From: a virus
DNA: 33,760 bases
IMG/VR virus record: IMGVR_UViG_3300035181_000266
Coordinates: 1-33,760 of that record
Strand: one strand, 5' to 3'
Part shown: in pieces, positions 3,449 through 24,224 of the stretch
Layout of the letters: the number at the start of each line of letters is the position of its first letter
Numbering within the stretch: position 1 is the stretch's first letter
Program-made: the position numbers and the translations under genes
The notes under the pieces: model-generated
Database searches by the model: none
What the model saw: the letters and a program-made list of their open reading frames with translations, nothing else
Told to the model about the DNA's origin: nothing

Positions 3449-3669
3449 GAGAACACATGGACCAATGGCTGATCCTCGTTACCGCGTACTTCAACGGACT
3501 TTAGATCGGGCACTTCTTTGCCAATAACGATTCTCGCCGCGTTGACTTGGGCTTGGGTCATTTCTATTTCACCGTTTGCAAATTGATTCAAACGGTTAAG
3601 CAACTGAGTAGCCCTTATCAGGCGTTTTGTTTTTTCGTCGTGATATATCTTGTTTTTTCGTGCGGCCAT
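3436..3669 (-). CDS. Probable terminase small subunit (short type)
   Basis: This 77-residue basic protein begins MAARKNKIYHDEKTK, followed by a helical segment and ends with a short acidic tail. It lies immediately before and overlaps the large terminase, where the DNA-recognition subunit is expected. Short proteins of this type (charged N-terminus, then a Q-V-x-A-A-R-I-V-I-G-K-x-x-P-D-L stretch) are common upstream of TerL in podovirus and siphovirus genomes. No classic Shine-Dalgarno precedes ATG 3667-3669; a 6-bp hairpin sits there instead (3677-3692). The assignment is by position and resemblance. The genome also carries a P27-type TerS-like gene at 13498 on the other strand. Confidence 0.6.
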   Translation of the reverse strand: MAARKNKIYHDEKTKRLIRATQLLNRLNQFANGEIEMTQAQVNAARIVIGKEVPDLKSVEVRGNEDQPLVHVFSWQS

Positions 3670-3676
3670 TTTTAAT

Positions 3677-3692
3677 CGCGGAGTGGTCCGCG
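3677..3692 (-). promoter_or_regulatory. Perfect hairpin at the ribosome-binding position of the small terminase gene
   Basis: CGCGGA, loop GTGG, TCCGCG (plus-strand reading) is a perfect 6-bp stem located 7 bases upstream of the ATG at 3667-3669. No U-run follows on either strand, so it is not an ordinary terminator. It could modulate translation, block read-through from the 50-residue gene, or be a recognition element near the packaging genes. The function is unknown. Confidence 0.4.
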
Positions 3693-3709
3693 CCTAAAAT
3701 GATGATGAT

Positions 3710-3862
3710 TCAGGAAATACCGAAGAAGGCTTTGATCTTGGCCCAGGTATCGGACTCAAGGTTATGCACTTCTACGGGTATGTTGGCGATTTCGGTTTCA
3801 ATCTTGGCAACCTCGGCGCGTGCATCGGCCAGCTTCTGGTTCAAAGCATCGATTACGGTCAT
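3710..3862 (-). CDS. Small coiled-coil protein, 50 residues
   Basis: The protein starts MTVIDALNQKLADARAEV, is almost entirely helical with heptad-like Leu/Ile/Val spacing, and ends AFFGIS. A GTG start 51 bases further upstream gives a longer reading but has no ribosome site; ATG 3860-3862 is preceded by GCGAGG at good spacing, so the short form is chosen. It lies between the Q-like regulator and the terminase, just downstream of the candidate late promoter, so it would be the first late gene. Function is unknown. Confidence 0.6.
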   Translation of the reverse strand: MTVIDALNQKLADARAEVAKIETEIANIPVEVHNLESDTWAKIKAFFGIS

Positions 3863-3923
3863 ATTCAACCTCGCAAGGCGTGATGTATTTTTGGAGCCGG
3901 TGCTGACTGCCACGGTAGCAGAA

Positions 3924-3952
3924 ACAATATCAAAATTATGGCTAAGTGTCGG
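3924..3952 (-). promoter_or_regulatory. Candidate late promoter downstream of the Q-like gene
   Basis: On the minus strand CCGACA, 17-base spacer, TATTGT gives a moderate sigma-70 match (4/6 and 4/6). It lies directly after the stop of the Q-like gene (3956), the place where lambdoid phages put the Q-dependent late promoter. A 15-base palindrome-like sequence CTGCCACGGTAGCAG (3907-3921) follows just downstream and could be an operator or pause element. The prediction is by eye. Confidence 0.35.
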
Positions 3953-3955
3953 GTG

Positions 3956-4372
3956 CTATTTTGTAGGGCATTTTCCTACGCATGGCTTCTCTGCTTCTCG
4001 GCTCGTTTCTTTATTCAATCTGAGTTGCATCCTGACCAGCCCAATGCACTTTGACGCGGCACAATGTGCACGCTCATAAAATGTATCTCGCCCAATTCCC
4101 ATATCTGCGGCGATGGCCTTGATTGGTTTAATCTTAATCCCGCAGTAGATGATAACGAACGGGACAAACTCGCCAACATCGAGGCTTGCCACGGCAAGAT
4201 TAAACGCATTTAGTTCTGCGGACATAGGGCCATCGGGTTCTCTGCCGGTCTTGCTTGGCATGAATTGAGCCAGAATGTTGCGCTGTAAAGGTGGTCCTAG
4301 AAACCTACGGCTATCGAGCCACTGAACCCAGTCCTGGGCCATCTGATAAGCGGCCTCGTTACGATGCGCCAT
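3956..4372 (-). CDS. Q-like late regulator (putative antitermination or HTH protein)
   Basis: The 138-residue form starts MAHRNEAAYQMAQDWVQWL. The C-terminal half contains a helix-turn-helix-like stretch, PIKAIAADMGIGRDTFYER, followed by a basic helix, as in sigma-region-4-like late regulators. The segment W-L-D-S-R-R-F-x-G-P-P resembles antitermination-type proteins found between nin genes and terminase. An in-frame ATG at 4418-4420 would add 16 residues, but ATG 4370-4372 has the better ribosome site (AAAGGGG, 5 bases upstream). It overlaps the Cys-rich gene by 14 bases. Position (after NinB/NinG, before a promoter and terminase) strongly suggests control of late transcription. The molecular mechanism is inferred. 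Confidence 0.6.
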   Translation of the reverse strand: MAHRNEAAYQMAQDWVQWLDSRRFLGPPLQRNILAQFMPSKTGREPDGPMSAELNAFNLAVASLDVGEFVPFVIIYCGIKIKPIKAIAADMGIGRDTFYERAHCAASKCIGLVRMQLRLNKETSREAEKPCVGKCPTK

Positions 4373-4553
4373 TATTTCCCCTTTCAGTCGGATTGTAATA
4401 GCTTTGGCAGCGTCGTTCATGCGCCTTGTTGTCTTTTAGGCAGCATTGCAGTCCCCATAGTCGGGTGAGGTTTATGCATCCTTTACATGTGCGGCTTTCT
4501 TCCATCTCGATGACCTTGGCTGGGTCTCCGTATCGATATGCGCGCTCTGTCAT
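4359..4553 (-). CDS. Small Cys-rich protein, probable zinc binder
   Basis: The 64 residues contain C-x-x-C (TCKGC), a CC pair and one more Cys before a basic tail (about residues 22-49), enough for one zinc site. The start ATG 4551-4553 has GGAGG upstream and overlaps the previous stop as ATGA. It is part of a tightly coupled row with NinB, NinG and the Q-like gene, the position of lambda's small nin proteins, many of which are Cys-rich. I do not recognise a specific family; function is unknown. Confidence 0.65.
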   Translation of the reverse strand: MTERAYRYGDPAKVIEMEESRTCKGCINLTRLWGLQCCLKDNKAHERRCQSYYNPTERGNNGAS

Positions 4554-4741
4554 CGCGCCGCCTCCGTCGTCTTCGCAATCCTATTCTGCCGCTCAATCCG
4601 CTTTTCAATGCACTGCCCGCACAGCCACCGCTGGCGAATTGGGCCGCCGCAGGGTATGTGCTTGCCTCCGTCTATAGGCTGCGTGGTCTGGCAGTTCTGG
4701 CAGTATCTGGTTGAGGTCGGGTTGTATGGGTTGATGGTCAT
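4550..4741 (-). CDS. Small zinc-ribbon-like protein in the nin region
   Basis: The 63 residues carry two C-x-x-C knuckles, YCQNC (residues 13-17) and LCGQC (40-44), about 25 residues apart, then a basic helix (RIERQNRIAK). This is a plausible treble-clef or zinc-ribbon fold. ATG 4739-4741 has a strong ribosome site (AAGGA) and overlaps the ninG stop as ATGA. A nucleic-acid-binding role is inferred from fold and neighbours; the family is not identified. Confidence 0.65.
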   Translation of the reverse strand: MTINPYNPTSTRYCQNCQTTQPIDGGKHIPCGGPIRQRWLCGQCIEKRIERQNRIAKTTEAAR

Positions 4742-5160
4742 TCCATTTCCTTTAGTCTGGCTCCGTAGTATTCGATGGCCTCTTCTACAAGTTTTCGTTT
4801 CTGCGTTGGTGATAACGTCTTCCGCGCCTCTGACTTAAGTTCGTCGATCTTCTCATGCCCGTATAAGTAGATCATGAATCGGGTGTAGTCGATCAGGTGT
4901 CCCTCATCGAACCGATTGCAGGACTGGCACTCGGGATGGACGTTTTCTTCGACGTAGCGAACAGCAGCGCCCCGAGACTTAGGCACGAAATGGCCACAGT
5001 CTGATTCTTTCCAAGGCATAAGCTTTCCGCAGGATACGCACTTTACCATCCCGTTATATGCATACTTTTGGCGGATATAGAGGCTCATTAGCTTGTCGGC
5101 CTTGTCCTGCAAGGTGGAGAGCTTTGGCCGGCGTGGTTTCGTGGATTTCTTTGGAATCAT
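4738..5160 (-). CDS. ninG: NinG/Rap-type recombination endonuclease
   Basis: NinG (Rap) of lambda is a structure-specific nuclease that resolves recombination intermediates and is found next to NinB. The 140-residue form has a basic N-terminus (KKSTKPRRPK), then C41-V-S-C44, a C55-G-H57 motif, and H75-x-x-C78-x-x-C81-N, an HNH-like zinc-bound catalytic core typical of this family, followed by a helical tail. A TTG four codons upstream gives a longer form, but ATG 5158-5160 overlaps the ninB stop as ATGA and is preferred. The length is shorter than lambda NinG, as in many homologues. Confidence 0.88.
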   Translation of the reverse strand: MIPKKSTKPRRPKLSTLQDKADKLMSLYIRQKYAYNGMVKCVSCGKLMPWKESDCGHFVPKSRGAAVRYVEENVHPECQSCNRFDEGHLIDYTRFMIYLYGHEKIDELKSEARKTLSPTQKRKLVEEAIEYYGARLKEME

Positions 5161-5579
5161 CGTTTCGCCCAATCTTCGTATTCATCCGGAACCGGGTCGG
5201 TCAGTTGAATCCTGTTATCAACCGACCATGCAATCACGTATTCAATCACGCTTGATAGTTTCCTAACGCTCATTGTCGTCGTACTTTCCCGGATGTTTAT
5301 AAATTCGCCCTCAAGGCCGGGAACGATCTCCGGCTTTTGTCCGGTGGCTATTTGCCAGCCAGAGACAAACAACCCCTTCCAAAACTCAATCGACCGCTTC
5401 TTTCCCATGTATTGAGCCTGTCGGCTTATATCAGTCAGGATGGCGTGAAATTTCGCTTTTTGAGACAGTTTTCCGGAAGGCTCTTTGATCTCCACCACGT
5501 AACCATCAGGCGCATCCTGCACGGCCTGTATTGCCCCCATACGGGCCGGTTTGTGGGCGAGGATATATTGCTGTCTCAA
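5157..5579 (-). CDS. ninB: NinB-like recombination mediator
   Basis: NinB (Orf) of lambda binds single-stranded DNA and can replace RecFOR. The 140 residues match the family's order: a short N-terminal strand region, A-I-x-A-V-Q near residue 17, the central K-L-S-Q-K-A-K-F-H with I-S-R-Q-A (residues about 37-55), then F-W-K-G-L-F and a conserved E-S-T-T-T-M patch. The likely start is a TTG (5577-5579), because the family needs the residues before Met14 and because the TTG overlaps the upstream stop by three bases. It is coupled to ninG by ATGA overlap, the classic ninB-ninG arrangement. Confidence 0.88.
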   Translation of the reverse strand: MRQQYILAHKPARMGAIQAVQDAPDGYVVEIKEPSGKLSQKAKFHAILTDISRQAQYMGKKRSIEFWKGLFVSGWQIATGQKPEIVPGLEGEFINIRESTTTMSVRKLSSVIEYVIAWSVDNRIQLTDPVPDEYEDWAKR

Positions 5580-5764
5580 TTACGCCCACATTCAGACAGC
5601 ATGGCAATTTTCAACTCCTCTGCCCGTTTCAGAACCATCGGCTTCTTGAGATATTCCGTCCTGAATGCCTTTGGCTGCTTCAGAAGCCATCTCGCCTCAC
5701 AGGTAAGCGCGTGAGACCGTGAGAAAGTGCAGCCGGGCTTCTCGCATGGTCGCTGATTGCACAT
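5576..5764 (-). CDS. Small Cys/basic hypothetical protein
   Basis: This 62-residue protein starts MCNQRPCEKPGCTFSRSH and has five Cys, three of them in the first 12 residues and one at residue 22, plus two His, which suggests a small metal site. The rest is a basic amphipathic helix. ATG 5762-5764 follows the previous TGA without a gap and has a strong purine-rich ribosome site (AGGGGG). It lies in the replication-to-nin transition. I do not assign a function. Confidence 0.65.
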   Translation of the reverse strand: MCNQRPCEKPGCTFSRSHALTCEARWLLKQPKAFRTEYLKKPMVLKRAEELKIAMLSECGRN

Positions 5765-5935
5765 TCACTTACGCCCCCTTTTCTGCAGCTTTTCGACAGC
5801 CTTCAATGCCTGTTCCCGTGCCGACATTTTCGGAAGATTGTGGTATGCCATGCGCTCTGCTTCGGCCCGAGATAGCCCACCGTCATACTCGATGATGGCG
5901 GCGCGTTCCTCGTAGGCTTCCTGGTCATCGGTCAT
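5765..5935 (-). CDS. Small hypothetical protein, 56 residues
   Basis: A short gene reading MTDDQEAYEERAAIIEYDGG, with a predicted helix, a middle R-A-E-A-E-R-M-A segment and a basic end (KLQKRGRK). It begins with ATG 5933-5935 overlapping the P-like gene's stop (ATGA) and ends with TGA directly before the next ATG. The perfect coupling on both sides is strong evidence that it is translated. The pattern (Y-D-G-G-L-S-R-A-E-A-E-R-x-A) is common in small phage and plasmid proteins of unknown function. Function is unknown. Confidence 0.7.
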   Translation of the reverse strand: MTDDQEAYEERAAIIEYDGGLSRAEAERMAYHNLPKMSAREQALKAVEKLQKRGRK

Positions 5936-6609
5936 GCTGCCCGATTTGTAAGCATTGCCTTGAGTGAATTAATCCTGTCCCGCGCCTTTTCACGATCAGC
6001 ATCCGTAGCGGACTTGTCTGTAAGGACGCCATTGCTGGCAACAAGTGCCAGAACGGCATCCCCACGGTCTTGAGAAAGCGGGGGTGGCAAAAGGCCTTTT
6101 GCGTAGCTCTGGCTGATCCGGCCAAGCCGAACGGCCTCTTTGAGCACGATTTCACGACCCTGGTTGTCGTGTCCAAGCGAGGCGAACCAATTCGGCTTGA
6201 TGCCTTGAGATTTGTTGCGCTCAACGATGCGGTTGTAGGCATCACGGAATGCCATGCGCGCCCCGTTCTTATCGTCAACCTCGTTTGCAATACCGAAGGC
6301 TTCGGCCATTTCGTCGGTCATTACCACGCTTGCGGCTTCGTCCCGGTATGGCAGCATGGCCCATGCTTCATCTGCTCCAGGCCTGCCGTCTGGGTTCATC
6401 TTGTCGATGAGGATGCGGATATGCGCCGGGGTAATGGTCTGCCCGTTCTCAGACAGGTGGCGCTCGAATGCTGCGCGGACTTCGTTGAAGCTGTAGTTCT
6501 TCAGCAGTCCCCACCATAGGCGCTTGGTTTCCACGCTGGCCTCGATACGGTAGATCGGCATTGCTGCATCCAGAAGATTGCTGAACAGGCGCTTCTCGTT
6601 TTCAAGCAT
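5932..6609 (-). CDS. P-like replication protein (putative helicase-loader partner)
   Basis: The 225-residue form starts MLENEKRLFSNLLDAAM. Longer readings from TTG 6660 or ATG 6654 lack a ribosome site, whereas ATG 6607-6609 has GGAG at good spacing and overlaps the O-like stop by 8 bases. The N-terminal half is helical with a W-W-G-L-L-K-N-Y-S-F motif and a F-x-R-H-L segment resembling helicase-loader N-domains. The middle has a G-R-P-G-A-D-E-A-W-A-M motif found in many phage proteins next to O-like initiators. No Walker motif is present, so it is not a DnaC-type ATPase. Role is inferred from position immediately after the initiator. Confidence 0.55.
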   Translation of the reverse strand: MLENEKRLFSNLLDAAMPIYRIEASVETKRLWWGLLKNYSFNEVRAAFERHLSENGQTITPAHIRILIDKMNPDGRPGADEAWAMLPYRDEAASVVMTDEMAEAFGIANEVDDKNGARMAFRDAYNRIVERNKSQGIKPNWFASLGHDNQGREIVLKEAVRLGRISQSYAKGLLPPPLSQDRGDAVLALVASNGVLTDKSATDADREKARDRINSLKAMLTNRAA

Positions 6610-7447
6610 GGCGGCACTCTCCGTTGATGGTGTTGGAGAATTGGTCAATGTCATCGCCAAGGAACTCGGCGGTTGACCTGCGGTTGTTTTCGTCTCGACG
6701 CTGTTGTGCCGTCATGATTTTGGATGCTCCGGACTTGCCACCCCACTTCGCAGCATTGCGAATCCACTTGCTCAGCGCTGCGTCCCAACTTGCCATAACC
6801 GAACCATTTGCAACGTGATGATCGCAGAAATGCGGAAACTCGTCAAGAAGGTTGACTGACAGGCTTGCAGCGAGTTCGCGGTGCTTGGGTTTTGGCTCAA
6901 AGTTTTCCGGCAGCGATTGCTTGCGTTTTGCTTTGGGCAATCGCGCAGCGGTTGCGGGCGCTGCGCGCCCCGAATCAATGAATCCGGAATCAGGAATCAG
7001 TGAATCAGGAATCAATAAATCAGAGCGTGTTGGCACCGTTTTTTCACCGTTGCATGACGGTGTTAGTACCTCCTTACCTTGCGCGCCTTTGTCTTCCTTG
7101 CTTTGGTCTGGGTCTGCCTTGCTTTGGTCTGGATACCCCCTTGCCTTTTCGGTGTGGTGTGGGGTCTGGTGTTTTACGAAGTTTTTGATCTGGATGTACC
7201 CCACACCACCCACTTTGTATCGGGTCAAAAATGCATCCCGTTCAAGCACCGTTAAATAACCGTTAACATCCAAACCCTCACGGTATGGAAACAGTTCTGC
7301 CTTTATTCGTAGCGGCCTGTCTTCCAAGATTCCGTCTTTGTCGGCAAGACACCACAGCCCAGCGAACAGCAAACTTATGATCGGGTCATAGGTTCCAAGT
7401 AGTTCATTGGTGAAAAAACCTGGTTTGATGTTTCGTGCTCTAGCCAT
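6602..7447 (-). CDS. O-like replication initiator
   Basis: The 281 residues have a winged-helix-like N-terminal domain (about 1-100, starting MARARNIKPGFFTNELL, with L-x-G-L-W-C-L-A-D-x-x-G), as in phage replisome-organiser proteins. A low-complexity linker (about 105-170) has repeated PDQSK and IPDS units. The C-terminal segment carries F-x-x-H-H-V-A-N-G-S and W-D-A-A-L-S-K-W-I-R-N, a pattern shared with DnaT-like and phage primosomal proteins. ATG 7445-7447 has an AGGGA site. It precedes the P-like gene. The DNA encoding the linker contains two sets of direct repeats, as in lambda O, where the origin lies inside the gene. Confidence 0.75.
   Translation of the reverse strand: MARARNIKPGFFTNELLGTYDPIISLLFAGLWCLADKDGILEDRPLRIKAELFPYREGLDVNGYLTVLERDAFLTRYKVGGVGYIQIKNFVKHQTPHHTEKARGYPDQSKADPDQSKEDKGAQGKEVLTPSCNGEKTVPTRSDLLIPDSLIPDSGFIDSGRAAPATAARLPKAKRKQSLPENFEPKPKHRELAASLSVNLLDEFPHFCDHHVANGSVMASWDAALSKWIRNAAKWGGKSGASKIMTAQQRRDENNRRSTAEFLGDDIDQFSNTINGECRHA
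6972..7132. repeat. Iteron-like repeats inside the initiator gene: candidate replication origin
   Basis: Two repeat sets lie in the linker-coding part. Between 6972 and 7022 the hexamer GAATCA or a one-base variant occurs seven times, at 6972, 6980, 6987, 6994, 7002, 7009 and 7017, a regular 7/8-base alternation. Between 7096 and 7132 the 16-mer CCTTGCTTTGGTCTGG occurs twice with a 21-base offset (7096-7111 and 7117-7132). Between them CACCGT occurs twice and its complement ACGGTG once (about 7034-7060). The encoded protein part is a flexible linker, so selection may act on DNA. The analogy is the lambda origin inside O. Confidence 0.5.
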
Positions 7448-9011: not shown

Positions 9012-9860
9012 ATGAGCAACGAGATAGCAGTAGTCAACGAACAACGCGCACTGACAGCCGGAGAAATCCGGTCTCATGTAAACCGTGTTCAGGAAGTCAT
9101 GAAGGCCGTTATGCTGCGCGACACGCACTATGGCATTATACCCGGCAGCAAGAAGCCGAGCCTGTATAAGCCGGGCGCTGAGGTTCTTTGTGTGGCCTTC
9201 CGTGTCGCCCCTAGCTACAAGATAGAAGAACTTTCCACAGATGATTGCGTGCGCTACCGGATTACCTGCGTTGGAACCCATCAATCCACGGGCGTGGTGC
9301 TCGGTGAAGGCGTTGGAGAATGCTCATCAAACGAGGAAAAATACAAGTGGCGGCGGGCAATCTGCCAGGAAGAGTACGATGAAACTCCGGCTGATCGCAA
9401 GCGCATCAAATACGGGAAATACCAGGGAAAAGTCGAGAGGACCCAACAGATTCGCACCGAGCCAGCAGACATTGCCAATACCGTTCTTAAAATGGCTGTC
9501 AAACGCGCCCAAGTAGCAATGACGCTGAATGTCACCGCCGCCTCTGACTGCTTTACCCAGGACATTGAAGACCTTCCGCCCGAGCTGCTGGAGATCGAGC
9601 GCAACCGGGAACAGGCCGGGAAACCTCCCGAAGAAAAGCCGCCCTATCCTGCCGCAGACTTTGAAAAGAATATAGAAGTATGGCGCAAGGCCATCAACGA
9701 AGGACGCGCATCAGCCGAACAAATCATCGCCCGGTCTTCCACCAAGTACATGCTATCCGATGAGCAGAAATCCGCCATCAGAGCACCCATTGAAGAAGCA
9801 CCGGAAGCCGCGCCAACTAATGACGAATGGGTTGCCGAATTTACAGGAGCAGAAAAATGA
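9012..9860 (+). CDS. Putative single-strand annealing protein of the phage recombination pair
   Basis: The 282-residue protein starts MSNEIAVVNEQRALT. The conserved core is residues about 20-190: H-Y-G-I-I-P-G-S-K-K-P-S-L-Y-K-P-G-A-E near 40-57, then Y-R-I-T-C-V-G-T-H, then E-E-K-Y-K-W-R-R and a A-N-T-V-L-K-M-A-V-K-R-A-Q-V segment. This block is shared by many phage proteins encoded next to exonucleases. The acidic Pro-rich tail (190-282) could recruit partners. Its stop overlaps the start of a YqaJ-type exonuclease (ATGA), which supports a Red/RecET-like pair. The annealing activity is inferred from this pairing; the sequence is not plainly RecT or Beta. Confidence 0.6.
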   Translation: MSNEIAVVNEQRALTAGEIRSHVNRVQEVMKAVMLRDTHYGIIPGSKKPSLYKPGAEVLCVAFRVAPSYKIEELSTDDCVRYRITCVGTHQSTGVVLGEGVGECSSNEEKYKWRRAICQEEYDETPADRKRIKYGKYQGKVERTQQIRTEPADIANTVLKMAVKRAQVAMTLNVTAASDCFTQDIEDLPPELLEIERNREQAGKPPEEKPPYPAADFEKNIEVWRKAINEGRASAEQIIARSSTKYMLSDEQKSAIRAPIEEAPEAAPTNDEWVAEFTGAEK

Positions 9861-11368
9861 TCGAAATCAACGAACCACAAGGAAGTGAAGCCTGGCTCGC
9901 ACACCGCGCCAAGTGCCTAAATGCCAGCGACGCACCGGCCATGATGGGAGTCAGCCCGCACAAGAGTCGCGCCGATATTCTCAAGGAGAAGTCTACCGGG
10001 ATTGCGCCCGAGATTGACGCAGCGACCCAGGCAAGGTTCGACCGGGGCCATGAAGTCGAAGAAATGGCCCGGCCCATAGCAGAGCGCATTATTGGCGAAG
10101 AATTGTTCCCAATGGTGGCCACCGATGATACCGGCAAGTATTCCGCAAGCTCGGATGGCGCGACGATGCTCTGTGATATCGGATTCGAACATAAATCATG
10201 GAACGAATCGCTCGCCGCAGCGGTAGAAACCGGCCACGTTCCCGAGTCTCACAAGTGGCAGCTTGTGCATCAGCAGATGGTTTTCGGATTCGAGAAGACG
10301 CTTTTCATGGTGTCCAATGGAACCGAAGAAAAGATGGTTTATTGCTGGTTCAAGGCGACTGATGAAGAAATTAAGCGCCTGCGCGCCGGTTGGGATCAAT
10401 TCGAGGAAGACCTAGAAGCCTACCAACATGTCGAAGCCAAGCCTGAGTCCATAGGCCGCGCACCGGATCAACTGCCATCCCTGCACATCGAAGTGACTGG
10501 CATGGTCACCGCCTCGAACCTGGACGAGTTCAAGGGAACCGCGCTGGCCGTGTTCCGTGGCATAAAAACCGACCTGCAGACCGACCAAGATTTCGCCGAC
10601 GCAGAGAAGGCCATCAAGTTCTGTAAGGATGCCGAAGAACGCCTGGAATCGGCCAAGTCCCATGCGCTGAGTCAGACCGAGAGCATTGATGAGCTTTTCC
10701 GCACCATCGACGCCATCAAGGAAGAGGCCCGGACAGTGCGACTCAAATTGGACAAACTGGTCAAGGTCGAGAAGGAAAACCGAAAGGCCGAGATCGTAAC
10801 GAAGGCCATGGCAGAATACCGCGAGCATATCGACGGCCTAAACAAGCGTATCGGCGGCCGGTGGATGCCGACCGTCGTTCCAGCTTTTGCCGAGTCCATC
10901 AAGGGCCTCAAGAGCCTGGACAGCATGCTCGACAAGATCGGAACCACTCTAGCCAATGCCAAGATAGAGGCGAATGAAACAGCCACGCGCATATCCCACA
11001 ATAAGAGCGCAGTCGGCGAGGATATGGCGCTGTTCCCGGACTGGCCGGATGTCTGCACCAAGTCAGAGGAGGACTTCGCTGCCATACTATCCATGCGCCT
11101 AAACCTGCGTAAAAAGGCGGAAAAAAAACTCCTTGCTGAAAGGCGTGACGTGAAATATACGACGACGGAAGCGATGCCGCGAGACATGCTTCATGTGAGC
11201 GTGAAAACGCCGACACGAGCGATGCAGGAGATTGAACTGTCGCATAAGCCGAACCTGTGGTTTGTGACCGACCCGCAAGGCCGGACGCACAAGGGAACCT
11301 TGGAGCAGATGACTCAGCTCTTGGTGCAACAGCGCCAGATCGAAAACACAGTTATTCAGGAGGATTAA
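9857..11368 (+). CDS. YqaJ-type (lambda-exonuclease fold) recombinase nuclease with long C-terminal extension
   Basis: The 503-residue form starts at ATG 9857, overlapping the upstream stop, with AGGAG at good spacing; an ATG 30 bases earlier lacks support. The N-terminal 170 residues are a YqaJ nuclease: G-S-E-A-W-L-A-H-R near 9-17, G-H-E (64-66), S-S-D-G (98-101) with the metal-binding Asp, E111-x-K113, and H-Q-Q (138-140). Residues about 180-410 are a charged, largely coiled-coil region resembling the DUF1351-type part of some phage recombination proteins, and the last 90 residues a separate globular tail. The fusion is longer than the usual 200-350 residues of single-domain YqaJ nucleases. 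Confidence 0.82.
   Translation: MIEINEPQGSEAWLAHRAKCLNASDAPAMMGVSPHKSRADILKEKSTGIAPEIDAATQARFDRGHEVEEMARPIAERIIGEELFPMVATDDTGKYSASSDGATMLCDIGFEHKSWNESLAAAVETGHVPESHKWQLVHQQMVFGFEKTLFMVSNGTEEKMVYCWFKATDEEIKRLRAGWDQFEEDLEAYQHVEAKPESIGRAPDQLPSLHIEVTGMVTASNLDEFKGTALAVFRGIKTDLQTDQDFADAEKAIKFCKDAEERLESAKSHALSQTESIDELFRTIDAIKEEARTVRLKLDKLVKVEKENRKAEIVTKAMAEYREHIDGLNKRIGGRWMPTVVPAFAESIKGLKSLDSMLDKIGTTLANAKIEANETATRISHNKSAVGEDMALFPDWPDVCTKSEEDFAAILSMRLNLRKKAEKKLLAERRDVKYTTTEAMPRDMLHVSVKTPTRAMQEIELSHKPNLWFVTDPQGRTHKGTLEQMTQLLVQQRQIENTVIQED
11332..11355 (+). repeat. Direct repeat shared with the right half of attC-like site 2, copy 1
   Basis: The 16-mer TCGAAAACACAGTTAT (11340-11355) recurs at 13821-13836. 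The bases before it (GCGCCAGA here, GCGTCCAGC there) are also similar, and each is followed within 13-16 bases by an ATG. Here it is the coding end of the exonuclease gene; there it is the end of the second attC-like site. Confidence 0.8.
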
Positions 11369-11917: not shown

Positions 11918-12196
11918 ATGTTTGGCGCAATCGTTCAAGAAACTGGCACTAGGCAGTATGGAATACTCACCACCGACCATTCATCGAGCAGTTATCGGTT
12001 TCCGGTATTCGTGCCTCTGAATTCTGAATACCTCCCAACGGGAGAGGATGCCCGTGGGAGTGGAGAAGTCGGGAACCTCATCACCTGCGGATACGTTGGA
12101 GAACTACCTGTACAGGGAGGGAAGCACGTAGGCTGGACCGAAGAATTCCGGGACCGCGTTCTCGCCGCCGGTTTCAAGTTTGAATACGGTAAATGA
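11918..12196 (+). CDS. Hypothetical protein, 92 residues
   Basis: The protein reads MFGAIVQETGTRQYGILTTD and is predicted mostly beta with a C-terminal helix (T-E-E-F-R-D-R-V-L-A-A-G-F). An ATG at 11912 would overlap the previous stop, but AGGAG then touches the start codon; ATG 11918 has six-base spacing and is chosen. The protein contains one Cys and no known motif. It is part of the promoter-B operon and its stop overlaps the next start by four bases. Function is unknown. Confidence 0.6.
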   Translation: MFGAIVQETGTRQYGILTTDHSSSSYRFPVFVPLNSEYLPTGEDARGSGEVGNLITCGYVGELPVQGGKHVGWTEEFRDRVLAAGFKFEYGK

Positions 12197-12666
12197 AAAC
12201 ATCTAATGAGAGGGTTGCGGCTCTTAGAGAGCGGGCCGCTGCGCGTGGCCTAAAGCGCCGAGAGATTTACGCGCATGAAGATGACTGGCCAGCAATCAAA
12301 GAGCTGGCCGTAAAACTGCAGAAACGCAGAGAGAAGGCCGTGAAGGAGGAATGTGCCACAATGAAAGAGATTGATGAGACAAGAAGATTTTTGACGGTGC
12401 GCAGGTTGCACGCAACATCACAGGAAGGAATGGAGCAGGACGCCGCCCGTTATCGATGGCTGCGCGACCGTATGCAGGTGCATTACGCAGTACCAATGTC
12501 TGGATGGAAACCCCGCGCCGAGCTGATGATGCGCTCCGGTCATGAATTTCTGTATAGCAAAATGCACCCGGCTGCCGGGTGGACGAACCCACGCTATTTC
12601 GACGAATGCCGAGAGAAGGTGGACGCTGCAATTGACGCTGCCATGAAGATGGACGCGGCGCGATGA
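12193..12666 (+). CDS. Two-part hypothetical protein with a DAARYRWLRDRM module
   Basis: The 157 residues look like two modules. Residues 1-55 resemble short repressor-like segments (R-E-I-Y-A-H-E-D-D-W-P-A-I-K-E-L-A-V-K-L). Residues about 80-157 carry DAARYRWLRDRM and F-D-E-C-R-E-K-V-D-A-A-I-D-A-A-M, a small module common in phage and bacterial hypotheticals. An internal ATG at 12361 is preceded by AAGGAGG about 12 bases away, so the second module may also be made alone. The first ATG overlaps the previous stop (ATGA) but has a weak ribosome site. Function is unknown. Confidence 0.6.
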   Translation: MKTSNERVAALRERAAARGLKRREIYAHEDDWPAIKELAVKLQKRREKAVKEECATMKEIDETRRFLTVRRLHATSQEGMEQDAARYRWLRDRMQVHYAVPMSGWKPRAELMMRSGHEFLYSKMHPAAGWTNPRYFDECREKVDAAIDAAMKMDAAR

Positions 12667-12830
12667 AAACGTGCGCGACCTGCAATGCCAGCCAAAACAA
12701 CACGGTCGAGCGCGTGTTGCGCTGCATGCGCTGCGTGGCAAAGCCGAGCGGAAACAGCAACTGGCGACCACTGGGGCATAACGCAGAGACAAGGGGCGCG
12801 AGTAAAAACGCAACAACGAAGTGCGTCTGA
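12663..12830 (+). CDS. Small zinc-ribbon-like protein reading into attC-like site 1
   Basis: A 55-residue gene starting at ATG 12663 (ATGA overlap with the previous stop). It begins MKTCATCNASQNN and has C-x-x-C at residues 4-7 and again at 21-24 (CMRC), a small zinc site. The frame continues into the attC-like site and stops inside it at 12828-12830. The tail after about residue 38 is therefore encoded by the site and may not be ancestral: the gene looks truncated or altered by insertion of the site. Confidence 0.55.
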   Translation: MKTCATCNASQNNTVERVLRCMRCVAKPSGNSNWRPLGHNAETRGASKNATTKCV

Positions 12831-12865
12831 TGTTCGTTCGCCCCGCCTTGAGCGCCTTGTTATGC
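12776..12865. repeat. attC-like site 1 (integron recombination-site architecture)
   Basis: The 90-base element has ends GCATAAC (12776-12782) and GTTATGC (12859-12865), perfect complements. Inside, CAAGGGGCG (12790-12798) pairs with CGCCCCGCCTTG (12839-12850) apart from three extra bases in the right arm; spacers of seven bases separate outer and inner boxes. The centre can form further small stems (ACGCA with TGCGT, AACGAA with TTCGTT). This is the R-L-L-R layout with unpaired bases that defines attC sites. Read on the minus strand the order TAAC, seven bases, TCAAGG closely follows typical attC left halves. The 7-mers deviate at one place from RYYYAAC/GTTRRRY. Confidence 0.55.
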
Positions 12866-12886
12866 GTCTAATTTTAAGGAAAGAAA

Positions 12887-13510
12887 ATGTCCATTTCATC
12901 CATCGCAGCACGCCGTAAACGGGTCCTAGAGAGTTTCAAAACGGCATCCGACTGCATAGGCACGATTGAGCCAGGCGCAGCGATTTTTGCGATAACACGC
13001 GGACAATTTTCCATGATCGACGCGACGCTGGCTTGCCTTGACCAGTGCGGCCCGTCTGATATTTCTGTATGGACCTGGACCGTTGCCGAGTACGAAATAG
13101 AGTGCATGGAGCGGCTGCGCAAGGATGGGCGCGTGAAAAATGCTACGCTTGTAATCGACTATGGCGCGCGCGTAAAAAATTCCGCGCTGATTTCGCGCTG
13201 GAAAGACACCTTCGGTTCGGAGTCGGTTAGGTATGTCGTGAATCACGCCAAAATTGTCACAATTTGCAGCAATAAATTTAAGTTACTGCTGCGCGGTTCC
13301 ATGAATCTGAACTTCAACCCACGGTTTGAGCAATTCGATCTTACGGAGGGCGGCGAGGATTACGATCTCGTCAAAAAAATAGAGGGCGAATTGCCGATAT
13401 TGGGCGACAACGCGAGTGGCATGGAGAGCTACAGAGCCAGCCGTGTGTCAGAGGCGTTCGAACCGGAGCAGTTATCATTTTTTACAGGAGTAAAGGTATG
13501 GGCAAAATGA
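12887..13510 (+). CDS. Single-HKD phospholipase-D-like protein in the cassette
   Basis: The 207 residues have an N-terminal alpha/beta part (1-110) with strands such as A-A-I-F-A-I-T and I-S-V-W-T-W-T, then the PLD-type catalytic signature H120-A-K122 followed by L-L-L-R-G-S138-M-N140-L-N. PLD nucleases (Nuc type) act as dimers with one HxK motif per chain, so a DNA nuclease is plausible; the usual Asp after HxK is not obvious. ATG 12887 lies 21 bases after attC-like site 1 with AAGGA upstream, as expected for the first gene of a cassette. It overlaps the TerS-like gene by 13 bases. Family reading is by motif. Confidence 0.65.
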   Translation: MSISSIAARRKRVLESFKTASDCIGTIEPGAAIFAITRGQFSMIDATLACLDQCGPSDISVWTWTVAEYEIECMERLRKDGRVKNATLVIDYGARVKNSALISRWKDTFGSESVRYVVNHAKIVTICSNKFKLLLRGSMNLNFNPRFEQFDLTEGGEDYDLVKKIEGELPILGDNASGMESYRASRVSEAFEPEQLSFFTGVKVWAK

Positions 13511-13776
13511 TCGATATTGCGGCAGAGCTTCAGCGCGACAACCCGCACGCCAGGCTGGTTGATGTGAAAGTTTTTGCTGATGCCTTGCGCATTTACCATG
13601 AGGCTGCGGCGAATGTTGCGGCGAACGGTGCTATTTGTTCGCATCCACGCACGGGAGCGCCGATTGAAAACCCATATCTTAAAATACAGGCCCAACAAGG
13701 GGTAATACTTGGACGCATGAAAACCATAAAAAGCGACCGGGTGATGGACCTTCTGGAAAAGTCTGGTGGCGCATAA
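13498..13776 (+). CDS. P27-type terminase-small-subunit-like protein in the cassette
   Basis: The 92 residues start MGKMIDIAAELQRDNPHARL. The core F-A-D-A-L-R-I-Y-H-E-A-A-A-N-V-A-A-N-G-A-I, then H-P-R-T-G-A-P-I-E-N-P-Y-L-K-I-Q-A-Q-Q, matches the P27-type TerS pattern (a helical DNA-binding protein that selects DNA for packaging). ATG 13498 has GGAG and overlaps the PLD-like gene by 13 bases, so the two are co-translated. The TAA stop (13774-13776) lies inside GCATAAC of attC-like site 2. It is unrelated in sequence to the short small-terminase candidate at 3436, and no large terminase is beside it. Confidence 0.6.
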   Translation: MGKMIDIAAELQRDNPHARLVDVKVFADALRIYHEAAANVAANGAICSHPRTGAPIENPYLKIQAQQGVILGRMKTIKSDRVMDLLEKSGGA

Positions 13777-13838
13777 CTCCGATTTGAGTGGCGACAGCTG
13801 ATTTATCGATGGCGTCCAGCTCGAAAACACAGTTATGC
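13771..13838. repeat. attC-like site 2, closing the cassette
   Basis: The 68-base element has ends GCATAACT (13771-13778) and AGTTATGC (13831-13838), an 8-base perfect inverted repeat, the same outer boxes as site 1. The inner arms GAGTGGCGAC (about 13786-13795) and GTCCAGCTC (about 13814-13822) pair imperfectly with unpaired bases in both. The upstream gene stops within the left box and the next gene starts 14 bases after the right box, as in integron cassettes. Its right half is repeated at 11332-11355. Confidence 0.5.
13812..13836 (+). repeat. Direct repeat shared with the exonuclease 3' end, copy 2
   Basis: TCGAAAACACAGTTAT (13821-13836) is identical to 11340-11355. In the exonuclease-equivalent frame this copy would encode LENTVMQGR then a stop, against IENTVIQED then a stop at copy 1, so it could be a remnant of a homologous gene end or a recombination scar. 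Confidence 0.75.
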
Positions 13839-13852
13839 AAGGGAGATAGTAA

Positions 13853-14119
13853 ATGATGAAAGACGACGGGAAGCCGTGGGACGTGAAGACTGTGAAGATT
13901 TCGCTCGGTGGAGAGGCTGACGAAAACGGATGGCTTGAGGCAGAGGTATTTGACGACGAGACTTTCCGAATTACGTTCAGGGGCGCAGATATTCGGTGGG
14001 AAACGGAAGATCGAAGCGACTGCACGGCGGAAGAAATGCCGCTTTCTATTGCGCGTAGACTGCGTGACTTCCTCAACTACGCAGTTCCGAACGCAGGATA
14101 TACACCAATCGACCAGTAA
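13853..14119 (+). CDS. Acidic hypothetical protein, last gene of the early block
   Basis: The 88 residues start MMKDDGKPWDVKTVKISLGG; an acidic, largely beta protein (D-E-N-G-W-L-E-A-E-V-F-D-D-E-T-F-R-I) with a C-terminal helix. It has a good ribosome site (GGGAG). It follows attC-like site 2 but no third attC-like site comes after it, so it is not a closed cassette and may be the gene next to the insertion point. It converges with the holin-like gene at 14155; the 35-base gap shows no strong terminator. Function is unknown. Confidence 0.6.
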   Translation: MMKDDGKPWDVKTVKISLGGEADENGWLEAEVFDDETFRITFRGADIRWETEDRSDCTAEEMPLSIARRLRDFLNYAVPNAGYTPIDQ

Positions 14120-14154: not shown

Positions 14155-14709
14155 TCATTTTGTCTGAGACAGAATAATCTTGTTCTTGTCGTTAGACCCA
14201 GCCGACGAACCGAAATAGTATGATATTGCTGAAATCCAAGCTGTTCCCAGCGCGCCCAGCATGATGTTTAGGATGTCCCGGCTACCAGTCGGCGGCTGGT
14301 ACTGCAGCAGGAATCCGAGAATGCCGAAGAACCCGAAGGTGATGGCGAAGGACAGCAGGCTCGGCGTCCAGTCCTTGACGATCTCTTCCCGTTTCCTGGC
14401 GGAGTCTCGATCTGCGGCGTCTGTCTGGGCAAGCGCGGCCTCGTGGTCTGCGTTGAGCTTGGCCAGGTCTATGCCTTGCTGGCTGATGATTTCTGCGTGT
14501 TTCTGATCCGCAGCGCGTACCTGCGCGATGATATCCGGGGTCATCCCGCCGCCCTGGATGACTTTTGTTATGTCTTCCTGCGAGGCGGTCGGGCCGAGTC
14601 CGAAGGCCTGCGCCAGTGCTGCCACGGCAGTTCCGGCCAGCGGACCGCCGAGCATTGTGGCCAAGGCCGGGGCGATGGAACCGATGGCCGTCTTGAGGTC
14701 AAAGCTCAT
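14155..14709 (-). CDS. Holin-like membrane protein
   Basis: The 184-residue form starts MSFDLKTAIGSIAPALA. ATG 14709 has GGAG at 7 bases; ATG 14715 is too close to it. There is a weakly hydrophobic segment near 10-37, a long charged coiled region (about 40-110), then two clear membrane segments (about L-L-S-F-A-I-T-F-G-F-F-G-I-L-G-F and I-L-N-I-M-L-G-A-L-G-T-A-W-I-S). This resembles three-segment phage or GTA holins. It is the last gene of the lysis cluster, directly after the endolysin. Holin function is inferred. Confidence 0.6.
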   Translation of the reverse strand: MSFDLKTAIGSIAPALATMLGGPLAGTAVAALAQAFGLGPTASQEDITKVIQGGGMTPDIIAQVRAADQKHAEIISQQGIDLAKLNADHEAALAQTDAADRDSARKREEIVKDWTPSLLSFAITFGFFGILGFLLQYQPPTGSRDILNIMLGALGTAWISAISYYFGSSAGSNDKNKIILSQTK

Positions 14710-14723
14710 GTTCATACTCCGAA

Positions 14724-15194
14724 TTAGGCCGCGCTTGCGACCTTGAATAAACGATTCATCCACCCGCGACCATAATTCGGCCAGGTATTGAGTTTCATGT
14801 AGGCGAACGCACGAAGGGTCATAAAGTTAGCCGCTTGGTCTGGAGTAGCTTGAGCGGCCTTGTGCATCGTCAGCGGCCCGAGTACGCCATCAACCTGCAC
14901 GCCGACAGCACTCTGCAATAATCGCGTTGTGGTGATAGGGCCTTGGTTTACTGCGCCATCGAATACGTACAGACTCAATGGCCAAGGGATTTCGTCGCAC
15001 TGCATACGGTCCCAGTAATCGCGCAAGTAGATTGCCTTGGCGTCGTCCTCAGTAAGATTGGCAATATCCAGATTCGGGTAAGCCTTCTTGCTGATGCCCC
15101 ATTTAGTTTCGCCGCCCGGATCGTTCGGGTCATTGACGTATCCGCCCTCGACCCCAACTACAATTGCAAACGCTCTGTCGAAATCTCCGGTCAT
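14724..15194 (-). CDS. GH108-type endolysin (muramidase)
   Basis: The 156 residues start MTGDFDRAFAIVVGVEGGYV. The N-terminal catalytic signature V-E16-G-G-Y-V-N-D-P-N-D-P-G-G-E-T-K-W-G-I is the glycosyl hydrolase 108 motif with Glu16 as the probable catalytic residue. The C-terminal half (from about residue 80) is the matching peptidoglycan-binding domain with G-V-L-G-P-L-T. No signal peptide is visible, so export needs the holin. Length is normal. It overlaps the upstream stop (ATGA). Cleaves the cell wall glycan at the end of infection. Confidence 0.92.
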   Translation of the reverse strand: MTGDFDRAFAIVVGVEGGYVNDPNDPGGETKWGISKKAYPNLDIANLTEDDAKAIYLRDYWDRMQCDEIPWPLSLYVFDGAVNQGPITTTRLLQSAVGVQVDGVLGPLTMHKAAQATPDQAANFMTLRAFAYMKLNTWPNYGRGWMNRLFKVASAA

Positions 15195-22284: not shown

Positions 22285-23406
22285 CTAGTTGTTCAGTTCA
22301 CAAATTCCGCACTCAGCAACCAAGTTATTGACCGCGTTTTGTGCTGCTGCCGCCACGATAGAAATTTTCTGCCGATATTCTTCGAACCTATCCGCGTGAT
22401 ACTTTTTAAGATACGCCCCGCGCCCATCGCCCACCCAAGCAGTGCAGACTAGGCAATCCCCGGAATGCGGCATTCCCTCGGCGTAATAGCGTGGTATTTC
22501 CCAGCCGTTCTGTACGATGTACTTGAAAACCTGCTCCGTGCTCCAGTCCTCTATCGGATACAGGAACTCAAAGCCATCTAGCACATCCCCGGAGCGGGCC
22601 GTACCCTTGAATGTTTCCTCAACCCGCTGCCCACGAATAATCAGCGTTATTCCGTCCTTTATCATCCGCTCATGCATGGGCTGCATGACGACACGCGAAC
22701 AGCAGGAGAATCTATCCTGCAATAGAACGGTTTCGGCTACTCTTAGATTGTGGCTTGTCAGGGTGGAAGAATAAGGTATCACATCTGATGGCATCCCGTG
22801 GAGCGAGATAACGGCATCCCGTTTCCCGTCAATCTCTATGAAATTCGGGACGCTACGCCTGACTTTATCAACGACCTCGACCACTTCTGGAAATGGGTCG
22901 CCTGTATTAAGCCAATAGACAGTTATCCTGTCTAAATAGGGGCGCATCATTTCCAGCGTGGCAATTGAATCCTTGCCGCCAGAAAATTGCAGCGCGATCC
23001 GTTCGTGTCTTGCAATGATCGAATCAAACAACTCTGGAAAAAAATCACGAACATCTGCAATTGGCTCATCTGCCGATTCTAAAATCGGCTGCATGAAGGC
23101 CGCAAACTCTGGATGCTGCATGAACGGGTCGTCACCGCCATCGCATACATAGGCTTTGCATCCTGCTGGTCTGGCATCGTAGATACTGCACTGGTTATCA
23201 ATATGGAACGGGCAGCCTGAAGCACGCACTGCATGGCGCAGGGGTTTGTGTATTGCCAGTTTCCTGCCGCTTATCTTTGCAGCTTCCTGCGCTTCGGTGA
23301 GAGTCATAACCACAAGCCGGTCTGTACCGCCCACATTGCAGCACTTGCCGCACCCTGTGCCGCAATGGGACGGTAGTCTTTCGCTTGCGAACTGTTCAGG
23401 TGTCAT
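22285..23406 (-). CDS. YkgJ-type Cys cluster fused to a PAPS-reductase-like (PP-loop) domain
   Basis: The 373 residues start at ATG 23404-23406, which shares a base with the previous stop (TGATG). Residues 15-88 form a YkgJ-type metal-binding cluster: C15, C19, C22, C23, then C65, C73 (with I-Y-D-A-R-P), C83 and C88. Residues about 137-330 are a PP-loop ATPase domain with S-G-G-K-D-S (142-147), the hallmark of PAPS reductases, DndC and tRNA/sulfur transfer enzymes. A CC pair (F-S-C-C-S-R) and a C-x-x-C near residue 325-328 could bind a cluster. It lies among ejection-protein genes, which is unusual. Confidence 0.82.
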   Translation of the reverse strand: MTPEQFASERLPSHCGTGCGKCCNVGGTDRLVVMTLTEAQEAAKISGRKLAIHKPLRHAVRASGCPFHIDNQCSIYDARPAGCKAYVCDGGDDPFMQHPEFAAFMQPILESADEPIADVRDFFPELFDSIIARHERIALQFSGGKDSIATLEMMRPYLDRITVYWLNTGDPFPEVVEVVDKVRRSVPNFIEIDGKRDAVISLHGMPSDVIPYSSTLTSHNLRVAETVLLQDRFSCCSRVVMQPMHERMIKDGITLIIRGQRVEETFKGTARSGDVLDGFEFLYPIEDWSTEQVFKYIVQNGWEIPRYYAEGMPHSGDCLVCTAWVGDGRGAYLKKYHADRFEEYRQKISIVAAAAQNAVNNLVAECGICELNN

Positions 23407-24224
23407 CAATAAATTGCCGCGGCAAGCGCCAGAGAGCCTACGCCCGCTGTCGTCTGCGCAGATTGTGCGTTCTGCGCGTTGACGTTGCCGACTTGGGTGT
23501 TATAGAGGTCATTTGTCGCACCCAACAAATCGGCACCGGCTGTAGTTGCTTGTTGCGCCGGGTTGACATAGTTAGGCGTCTGAACCTGGGAGCCTGTGCG
23601 CAATGCGTTAATCATATTGATGGGCTGCATCTGGTTGTAGGCCTGCTGGTTGAATGCCTGATTATTGGCGTTCAATCCCATGTTCATTCCCGACGTCGTG
23701 GCTTGGGCTAATAGATTGTTGTTATTCTGGTCCTGCTGCTGCCATGCGTTTTTCCACGCCTCGGAACCTTGCGTGACTCCCTGATTAGCCAGTTGTGCAG
23801 TAAGGAAATTATTCGACCGGTCGATCTGAGGTTGCAGTTGGGCCATCATCGCGTCTTGATACGACTGGCCAGGGTTGATTCCCGTCGAAGGGAGCGATGA
23901 CATATCGACACCAGGCCTGCTAAGGACCTGATTTGCATACTGAAGCCCGTTGTTCGCCGTACCCAATAGACCGATGGACAGGTTATTATTCCGATCCAGC
24001 ATTGTCTGTTGTGCCGGAGTAAGGGTTTGCGTCGCCGTCCACCGGGCATTGACGTTCGATGGATCGTTCGGCATGTCGGTCGAATAGGTCAGATTCCCGT
24101 AGGGCGTGATCTGATTTACCCGGTTCGCCTGGGCTGCATATTGAGCCGCCTCTAGATTGCCTGCCGCCGTTGCATTGGCTGCGCCTACATAATCCGGTGG
24201 TGGAGGTGCGGATGATTTACCCAT
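23406..24224 (-). CDS. Gln/Asn-rich internal virion protein
   Basis: The 272 residues start MGKSSAPPPPDYVGAANATA, a short N-terminal motif common to phage internal/tail proteins (P-P-D-Y-x-x-A-A-x-A-T-A-A-G-N). The body is Gln/Asn-rich helical (Q-Q-D-Q-N-N-N-N-L-L, F-N-Q-Q-A-Y-N-Q-M-Q) and ends hydrophobic (LALAAAIY). It is probably one of three ejection proteins, like P22 gp7. No RBS better than GGAAATAAT is seen. Confidence 0.65.
   Translation of the reverse strand: MGKSSAPPPPDYVGAANATAAGNLEAAQYAAQANRVNQITPYGNLTYSTDMPNDPSNVNARWTATQTLTPAQQTMLDRNNNLSIGLLGTANNGLQYANQVLSRPGVDMSSLPSTGINPGQSYQDAMMAQLQPQIDRSNNFLTAQLANQGVTQGSEAWKNAWQQQDQNNNNLLAQATTSGMNMGLNANNQAFNQQAYNQMQPINMINALRTGSQVQTPNYVNPAQQATTAGADLLGATNDLYNTQVGNVNAQNAQSAQTTAGVGSLALAAAIY

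Follow-up and report, generated by a model that had tools for sequence, protein, structure and literature searches.

An intI-less array of apparent inverted integron cassettes in a tailed phage

The window, as we call the whole stretch of 33,760 bases analysed here, is an IMG/VR record with terminase, major head, tail, endolysin, NinB/NinG and RecE-like phage genes. Judging from sequence comparisons, we consider it highly probable that the window holds part of a phage array of genuine, inverted integron cassettes that would be moved by IntI in trans. This reading is carried by attC identity, attC polarity, cassette ends, exchange between phages and a phage-encoded IntI, each of which is documented in the sequences. 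We see the array of the window as an apparent intI-less case within a class of phage integrons; this inverted layout is found again in dozens of other phages, in many cases together with an integrase gene of its own. All of the evidence is computational. The first-pass annotation of this DNA had proposed an integron-type cassette in a phage. The covariance model score, an exchange seen in one relative and the circular complementarity of the boxes strengthen that proposal, but the layout and the limits that it gave to the cassette have to be changed.

Two attC-type sites in the window

Two inverted repeats with identical 7-base boxes had been placed at 12776-12865 and 13771-13838, and both are found exactly there, with exact GCATAAC/GTTATGC boxes at 12776-12782 and 12859-12865 in site 1 and at 13771-13777 and 13832-13838 in site 2. 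As also claimed, the endonuclease gene starts 21 bases past site 1 (ATG at 12887), and the left box of site 2 contains the TAA (13774-13776) of the second, P27-like gene. The one-base deviation of the boxes from RYYYAAC that had been pointed out is no defect; GCATAAC boxes occur also in chromosomal attC sites beside intI (L169, L182).

Scoring of both sites with an attC covariance model (CM), a check proposed with the annotation, gave matches on the minus strand only, modest in the case of site 2 (E 0.15; Table 1). The model was built from 16 of 28 chromosomal sites, which were collected by a strand-neutral rule (1 site in shuffled sequence) from arrays adjoining intI in gammaproteobacterial genomes. 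It was run with default filters (with the filters off long sites were lost, probably through a hit-length limit), and its E-values are rough. In 41 intI-adjacent control loci the model gave 172 matches at E<=1, and 169 of the 172 lay on the strand that intI predicts; the 3 wrong-strand matches were weaker mirror matches of the same sites. As a control, 1.22 Mb drawn from other phage loci yielded 5 matches with E<1, and the majority of these look real. The corresponding locus in the relatives L060, L041/L053 and L058 yielded 12 more sites, each of them antisense to the genes. The sites of the relatives score 9.9 to 30.8 bits, and close relatives have 3 to 5 sites each against 2 in the window. 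Both window sites have the R''/R' and L''/L' boxes, an extra base in one arm and an attC model score. By these features the window repeats are confirmed as attC-type sites with a polarity opposite to the phage genes. Two attC within a few kb and no integrase correspond to the CALIN arrangement (at least two such sites).

Folding had been suggested as a further check. Each site folds slightly better than shuffled sequences, but it does so on either strand (z -1.5 to -2.7), and folding energies by themselves are too weak as evidence for attC identity. The annotation had also named transcription terminators as an alternative. There is no T-run after either hairpin, the 3' sequences being GTCTAATTTTAAGG and AAGGGAGATAG, and the sites thus do not have the form of intrinsic terminators. 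An Rfam search of the window returned no family, and a search of 50,697 phage records returned no DNA similarity to the window.

Table 1. Features of the window locus
Feature	Position	Strand	Remarks
attC site 1, 90 nt	12776..12865	-	CM R1 26.6 bits, E 2e-4, minus strand only; inverted relative to genes
attC site 2, 68 nt	13771..13838	-	CM R1 16.0 bits, E 0.15, minus strand only; inverted relative to genes
Predicted movable unit: attC1 hairpin, endonuclease and P27-like small terminase	12782..13776	+	cuts 12781/12782 and 13776/13777
Endonuclease, phrog_16945	12887..13510	+	phrog_16945 E 5e-34; 39 viral relatives
P27-like phage small terminase	13498..13776	+	PF05119 E 9e-4, below curated cut-off
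Small CxxC zinc-ribbon gene, end of preceding cassette, runs into attC1	12663..12830	+	
phrog_4029-like gene	12193..12666	+	apparent fusion of two genes 1.2 kb apart in L058
Third cassette: attC2 and gene 13853-14119	13777..14091	+	array-end box TCCGAAC at 14086-14092
Left backbone: phrog_10048 gene and RecE-like/YqaJ exonuclease	9012..11368	+	87-88% identical in relatives
Right backbone: convergent phrog_1544 gene and GH108 endolysin	14155..15194	-	90-91% identical in relatives

Genes of the locus

The endonuclease has conserved H120, K122 and N140, which we read as a putative single HxK...N motif as in PLD-type nucleases; no fold or PDB relative was matched by sequence. In most of the relatives inspected, the P27-like gene comes after the endonuclease. 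Most of these relatives are other phages in which no hairpins were noticed around the pair, so that both genes are ordinary phage genes. The pair occurs in diverse phages, sometimes directly before an apparent large terminase (L038). The two parts of the 12193-12666 open reading frame are split in L058 by 1.2 kb of cassettes, and the fused frame is probably a deletion scar; breaks within it lie at 12330/12342. At the other end, the array directly meets the convergent lysis genes, and the flank past the cut of the third cassette (GCAGGATATACACC) is common to the window, L060 and L053, while the sequence before the cut differs. No intI or other tyrosine recombinase was found in the window or in the close relatives L060, L058 and L041, and the window is thus not a complete integron with intI and attI in cis. 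RecT-like relatives were found in gammaproteobacterial and other genomes. A PAPS-reductase-like gene (phrog_424) lies at 22285-23409 inside the tail/late module of the window.

Cassette limits and exchange among related phages

Three relatives that are 85-95% alike carry other cassettes at the locus; counted with the window, the four phages have common flanks of 83-92% identity and different genes between them. Third-position substitutions among the homologous genes follow the plus frame, which places the genes on the plus strand. With plus-strand genes and minus-strand attC, the sites are inverted relative to the genes, and the predicted IntI cut is in the left box, at GCATAA^C. Of 57 homology boundaries, 19 are found no more than 10 nt from this cut and none at the conventional right-box cut; about 1.0 boundary near the cut is expected at random (maximum 6 in 5000 draws), although the breakpoints are not independent of each other and left boxes coincide with gene ends. 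Counted by site, homology breaks at the inverted-polarity cut in 13 of 14, as expected of a cassette that ends at the R' cut. Some boundaries lie elsewhere, at start codons and at a homing endonuclease.

The unit can be followed in single relatives. A block of 995 bp (12779-13772 of the window) is homologous in L060 at 91%, and the predicted cassette length is 995 bp; in L041 the homologous block covers 12779 to 13777/13780 and its flanks are unrelated. L058 has the zinc-ribbon gene too, ending at the corresponding box, after which come another hairpin and a DUF551 gene. The hairpin travels together with its downstream gene in the relatives. These comparisons support an inverted attC and a cassette of 12782-13776 whose ends are set by the left-box cut, GCATAA^C.

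A conventional cassette, with the attC 3' of its gene, a G^TT cut in the right box and a host integron as the source, is very unlikely here. Such a cassette would account for the two-gene unit, the stop codon in the left box and the next start soon past the right box, and standard polarity is indeed seen in phage TJE1 and in the integrons of Vibrio and Shewanella phages. Against it stand the opposite polarity of the model matches, the absence of boundaries at the right-box cut and the hairpin that moves with the downstream gene; in the window and its relatives alike, the genes are not in sense with an attC at their 3' side. The conventional unit of 12866-13833 given by the first-pass annotation therefore gives way to the left-box unit, in view of the minus-strand matches and the boundary counts. 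The comparison with relatives that it called for did reveal exchange, with another cassette in L058, but the breaks fall at the left-box cut and not at a G/TT junction.

Several further insertions and sites were seen in these phages. An HNH endonuclease-type gene at about 8225-8835 of L041 lies within a gene that is intact in L060, with the flanking repeat CAATGGCGGAACAGT, and looks like a homing insertion. A single attC of 19.8 bits, antisense to the genes and near the large terminase, is present at 4965-5029 of L058 (150-214 of L042) and at 4291-4355 of L059; the homology with the window begins just past it (L058 5036 corresponds to window 4011). Inverted attC arrays occur also in more distant phages (59% RecE-like, 54% RecT-like), at 8260-8934 of L044 and 5971-6340 of L067, the latter holding an ASCH-like gene.

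Circular complementarity of the boxes and a shared cassette pool

In an integron, the neighbouring cassette supplies the final bases of the R box. The best match between boxes is therefore expected in the circular form of a cassette. Pairing of the right box with the next left box, as in a circle, matches 3.46 of 4 variable bases on average in 13 cassettes, compared with 2.08 in the linear hairpin; the 13 cassettes are not independent events, and L060 and L041 have cassettes in common. The circular match was better in 10 cassettes, worse in 1 and tied in 2, and none of 20,000 shuffles was as high.

Cassette sequences recur in unrelated phages and are broken at the same point. The zinc-ribbon cassette has 137 nt at 87.6% identity in the intI-bearing phage L292, where the match ends at window position 12784, 3 nt off the cut. 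The attC2 hairpin has a 73-nt copy, 89% identical, in the array of another phage (L217), which also holds an 88.8% copy of the last L060 cassette with a match ending at the array-end box.

Lambdoid nin regions have boundary sequences at which homologous recombination swaps modules. The hairpins could likewise be linkers (mRNA structures or weak terminators) for module swaps by phage homologous recombination with no integron integrase, a possibility that we regard as improbable. The phage encodes a RecE-like exonuclease and NinB/NinG, a short TAACGC is common to the junctions, and the cut coincides with the gene end, all of which would suit linkers. However, linkers would not explain a sequence-specific attC model match of consistent polarity, box complementarity that is circular and not linear, hairpins that lack a T-run, or the IntI that adjoins identically built arrays in homologous phages.

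Gene polarity in chromosomal and phage arrays

Gene orientation between attC sites was assigned by a codon model; ORF length alone is ambiguous in GC-rich phages. Querying IMG/VR with two attC patterns, which favour one L-box type, gave 36 more contigs, nearly all with arrays. Intervals between attC sites in chromosomal intI-bearing arrays were 67 sense, 3 antisense and 12 unclear, compared with 0 sense, 81 antisense and 8 unclear in viral arrays (about 30 contigs, which are fragments and include the window family). Viral contigs that encode IntI had 12 sense, 82 antisense and 7 unclear intervals. L338 and L308 account for ten of these 12 sense intervals, and L338, which has an isolate-genome source, may be a host integron beside a prophage. 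The stronger statement that all phage arrays are inverted is ruled out by TJE1, Vibrio p16 and Shewanella M16-3, which have standard polarity. L007 also has standard polarity by eye, but gave a single model match.

Two artefacts, inverted repeats arising by chance and a host integron misassembled into viral contigs, are together extremely unlikely. The contigs are metagenomic and the folding z-scores are modest, yet several contigs, assembled from different samples, have the same locus and array, gene polarity in host arrays is the reverse, and the arrays are flanked by phage genes for head, tail, replication and lysis.

IntI encoded by phages

With an IntI profile, 503 viral stretches encoding IntI relatives were retrieved, and 80 loci were kept. 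In the kept loci the attC sites lie on the 5' side of intI and point away from it, as in any integron, and the genes run toward intI. The usual neighbours of intI are the phage integrase and the convergent lysis/tail genes. The order in L291, L327 and L337 is early genes, inverted cassettes, intI, phage tyrosine integrase and convergent lysis/tail genes; L275, which is cut short, has cassettes, intI and integrase. Among the viral contigs of the pattern survey, one (L222, IMGVR_UViG_3300046004_001812) encodes an IntI above the family cut-off. Its region 3575-7181 holds a phage integrase, the IntI (468 bits) and an inverted cassette with a Dcm-like methyltransferase, and the array adjoins tail and GH108 endolysin genes.

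The IntI catalytic residues are invariant across the alignment. In a quick tree with narrow chromosomal sampling and moderate support, one branch (SH-aLRT 94) splits 72 of the 80 viral IntI from 36 chromosomal rows, and 31 of the 33 viral IntI with inverted arrays fall on the same side of it. Phage IntI do not fully form one clade; L297, L307 and a small number of contigs derived from isolates fall with the chromosomal IntI. Named phage records contain only 9 IntI. In Virus Rctr41k (KX853513, 2317-5678), codirectional small genes lie ahead of an IntI-like 'xerD' and run toward it; this phage gave no attC match with this model, and possibly has a different attC type.

Proposed mechanism and implications

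In the direction of the genes, a cassette would consist of an attC hairpin, one or more genes and a stop codon that falls at the very start of the next R box. Because attC and genes have opposite polarity, the recombinogenic attC bottom strand would be the coding strand. IntI would bind the folded strand and cut GCATAA^C, and circular cassettes such as 12782-13776 would be excised and inserted. Expression of the cassettes would come from read-through of the phage operon, with no integron Pc promoter. Since the window phage has no intI, IntI would have to act in trans, the source presumably being the host, a prophage or another phage that encodes intI. In related phages intI appears at the array end beside the phage integrase; the window has the gene polarity and the adjacency to lysis genes of the proposed inverted phage integron and lacks intI and int. 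The inversion may be kept because only inverted cassettes would be expressed in the phage operon. More speculatively, the inversion could mean that the recombinogenic strand is the one left more exposed by replication or transcription.

Integrons have been regarded as bacterial platforms with cassettes read from Pc, and the origin of cassettes is an old open question. It is likely that tailed phages own an integron lineage, with IntI encoded just ahead of the phage integrase where an early operon ends, that the inverted pool is largely separate from the Pc-driven pool of the host, and that the window, itself without intI, trades cassettes with phages that have it. If this is true, phages are owners of integrons and not occasional carriers, and the mosaicism of phage accessory regions gains a concrete mechanism. 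It would also mean a second cassette pool, whose genes would be silent behind Pc once in a host array.

Comparison with known systems

The first-pass annotation called cassettes in tailed phages seldom described, which is fair, but they are not new in themselves. Integron parts were reported in 21 phages, 5 of 6 tested phage attC sites were active with IntI1, and the temperate cases were treated as captured host integrons (Qi et al. 2023, PMC9892861). Those phages (TJE1, P12002L, PH101, Vibrio p16, Shewanella M16-3) resemble the present class in being tailed phages with attC arrays and with methyltransferases among the cassette genes, and several of their sites were active with IntI1. The present class differs from them in its inverted cassettes, its phage-lineage IntI and its constant position next to the phage integrase; of the earlier phages, TJE1, Vibrio p16 and Shewanella M16-3 were tested with our model and have standard polarity, unlike the inverted class of the window. 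The first 50 kb of PH101 gave no model matches. Text searches of open-access journal papers returned no description of inverted cassettes in phages. Phage attC sites are thus already known, and the inverted phage integron appears to be undescribed.

Gammaproteobacterial chromosomal integrons are alike in attC architecture, R-box rules, attC sites pointing away from intI and the IntI family TIGR02249. Their genes, however, are in sense with attC (67:3) and divergent from intI, whereas those of the phages are antisense (0:81, 12:82) and run toward intI. The reverse integron of Treponema denticola (PMC4909258, PMC7691350) resembles the phage class in that intI and the cassette genes are transcribed in one direction. 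In Treponema, however, intI itself is turned, the genes lie downstream of intI, the stop codon is in R'' and the attC polarity is standard, and the phage arrays are therefore not reverse integrons of that type. In the phage class the attC sites lie on the 5' side of intI, the relation of intI to attC is the usual one, and the genes inside the cassettes are turned.
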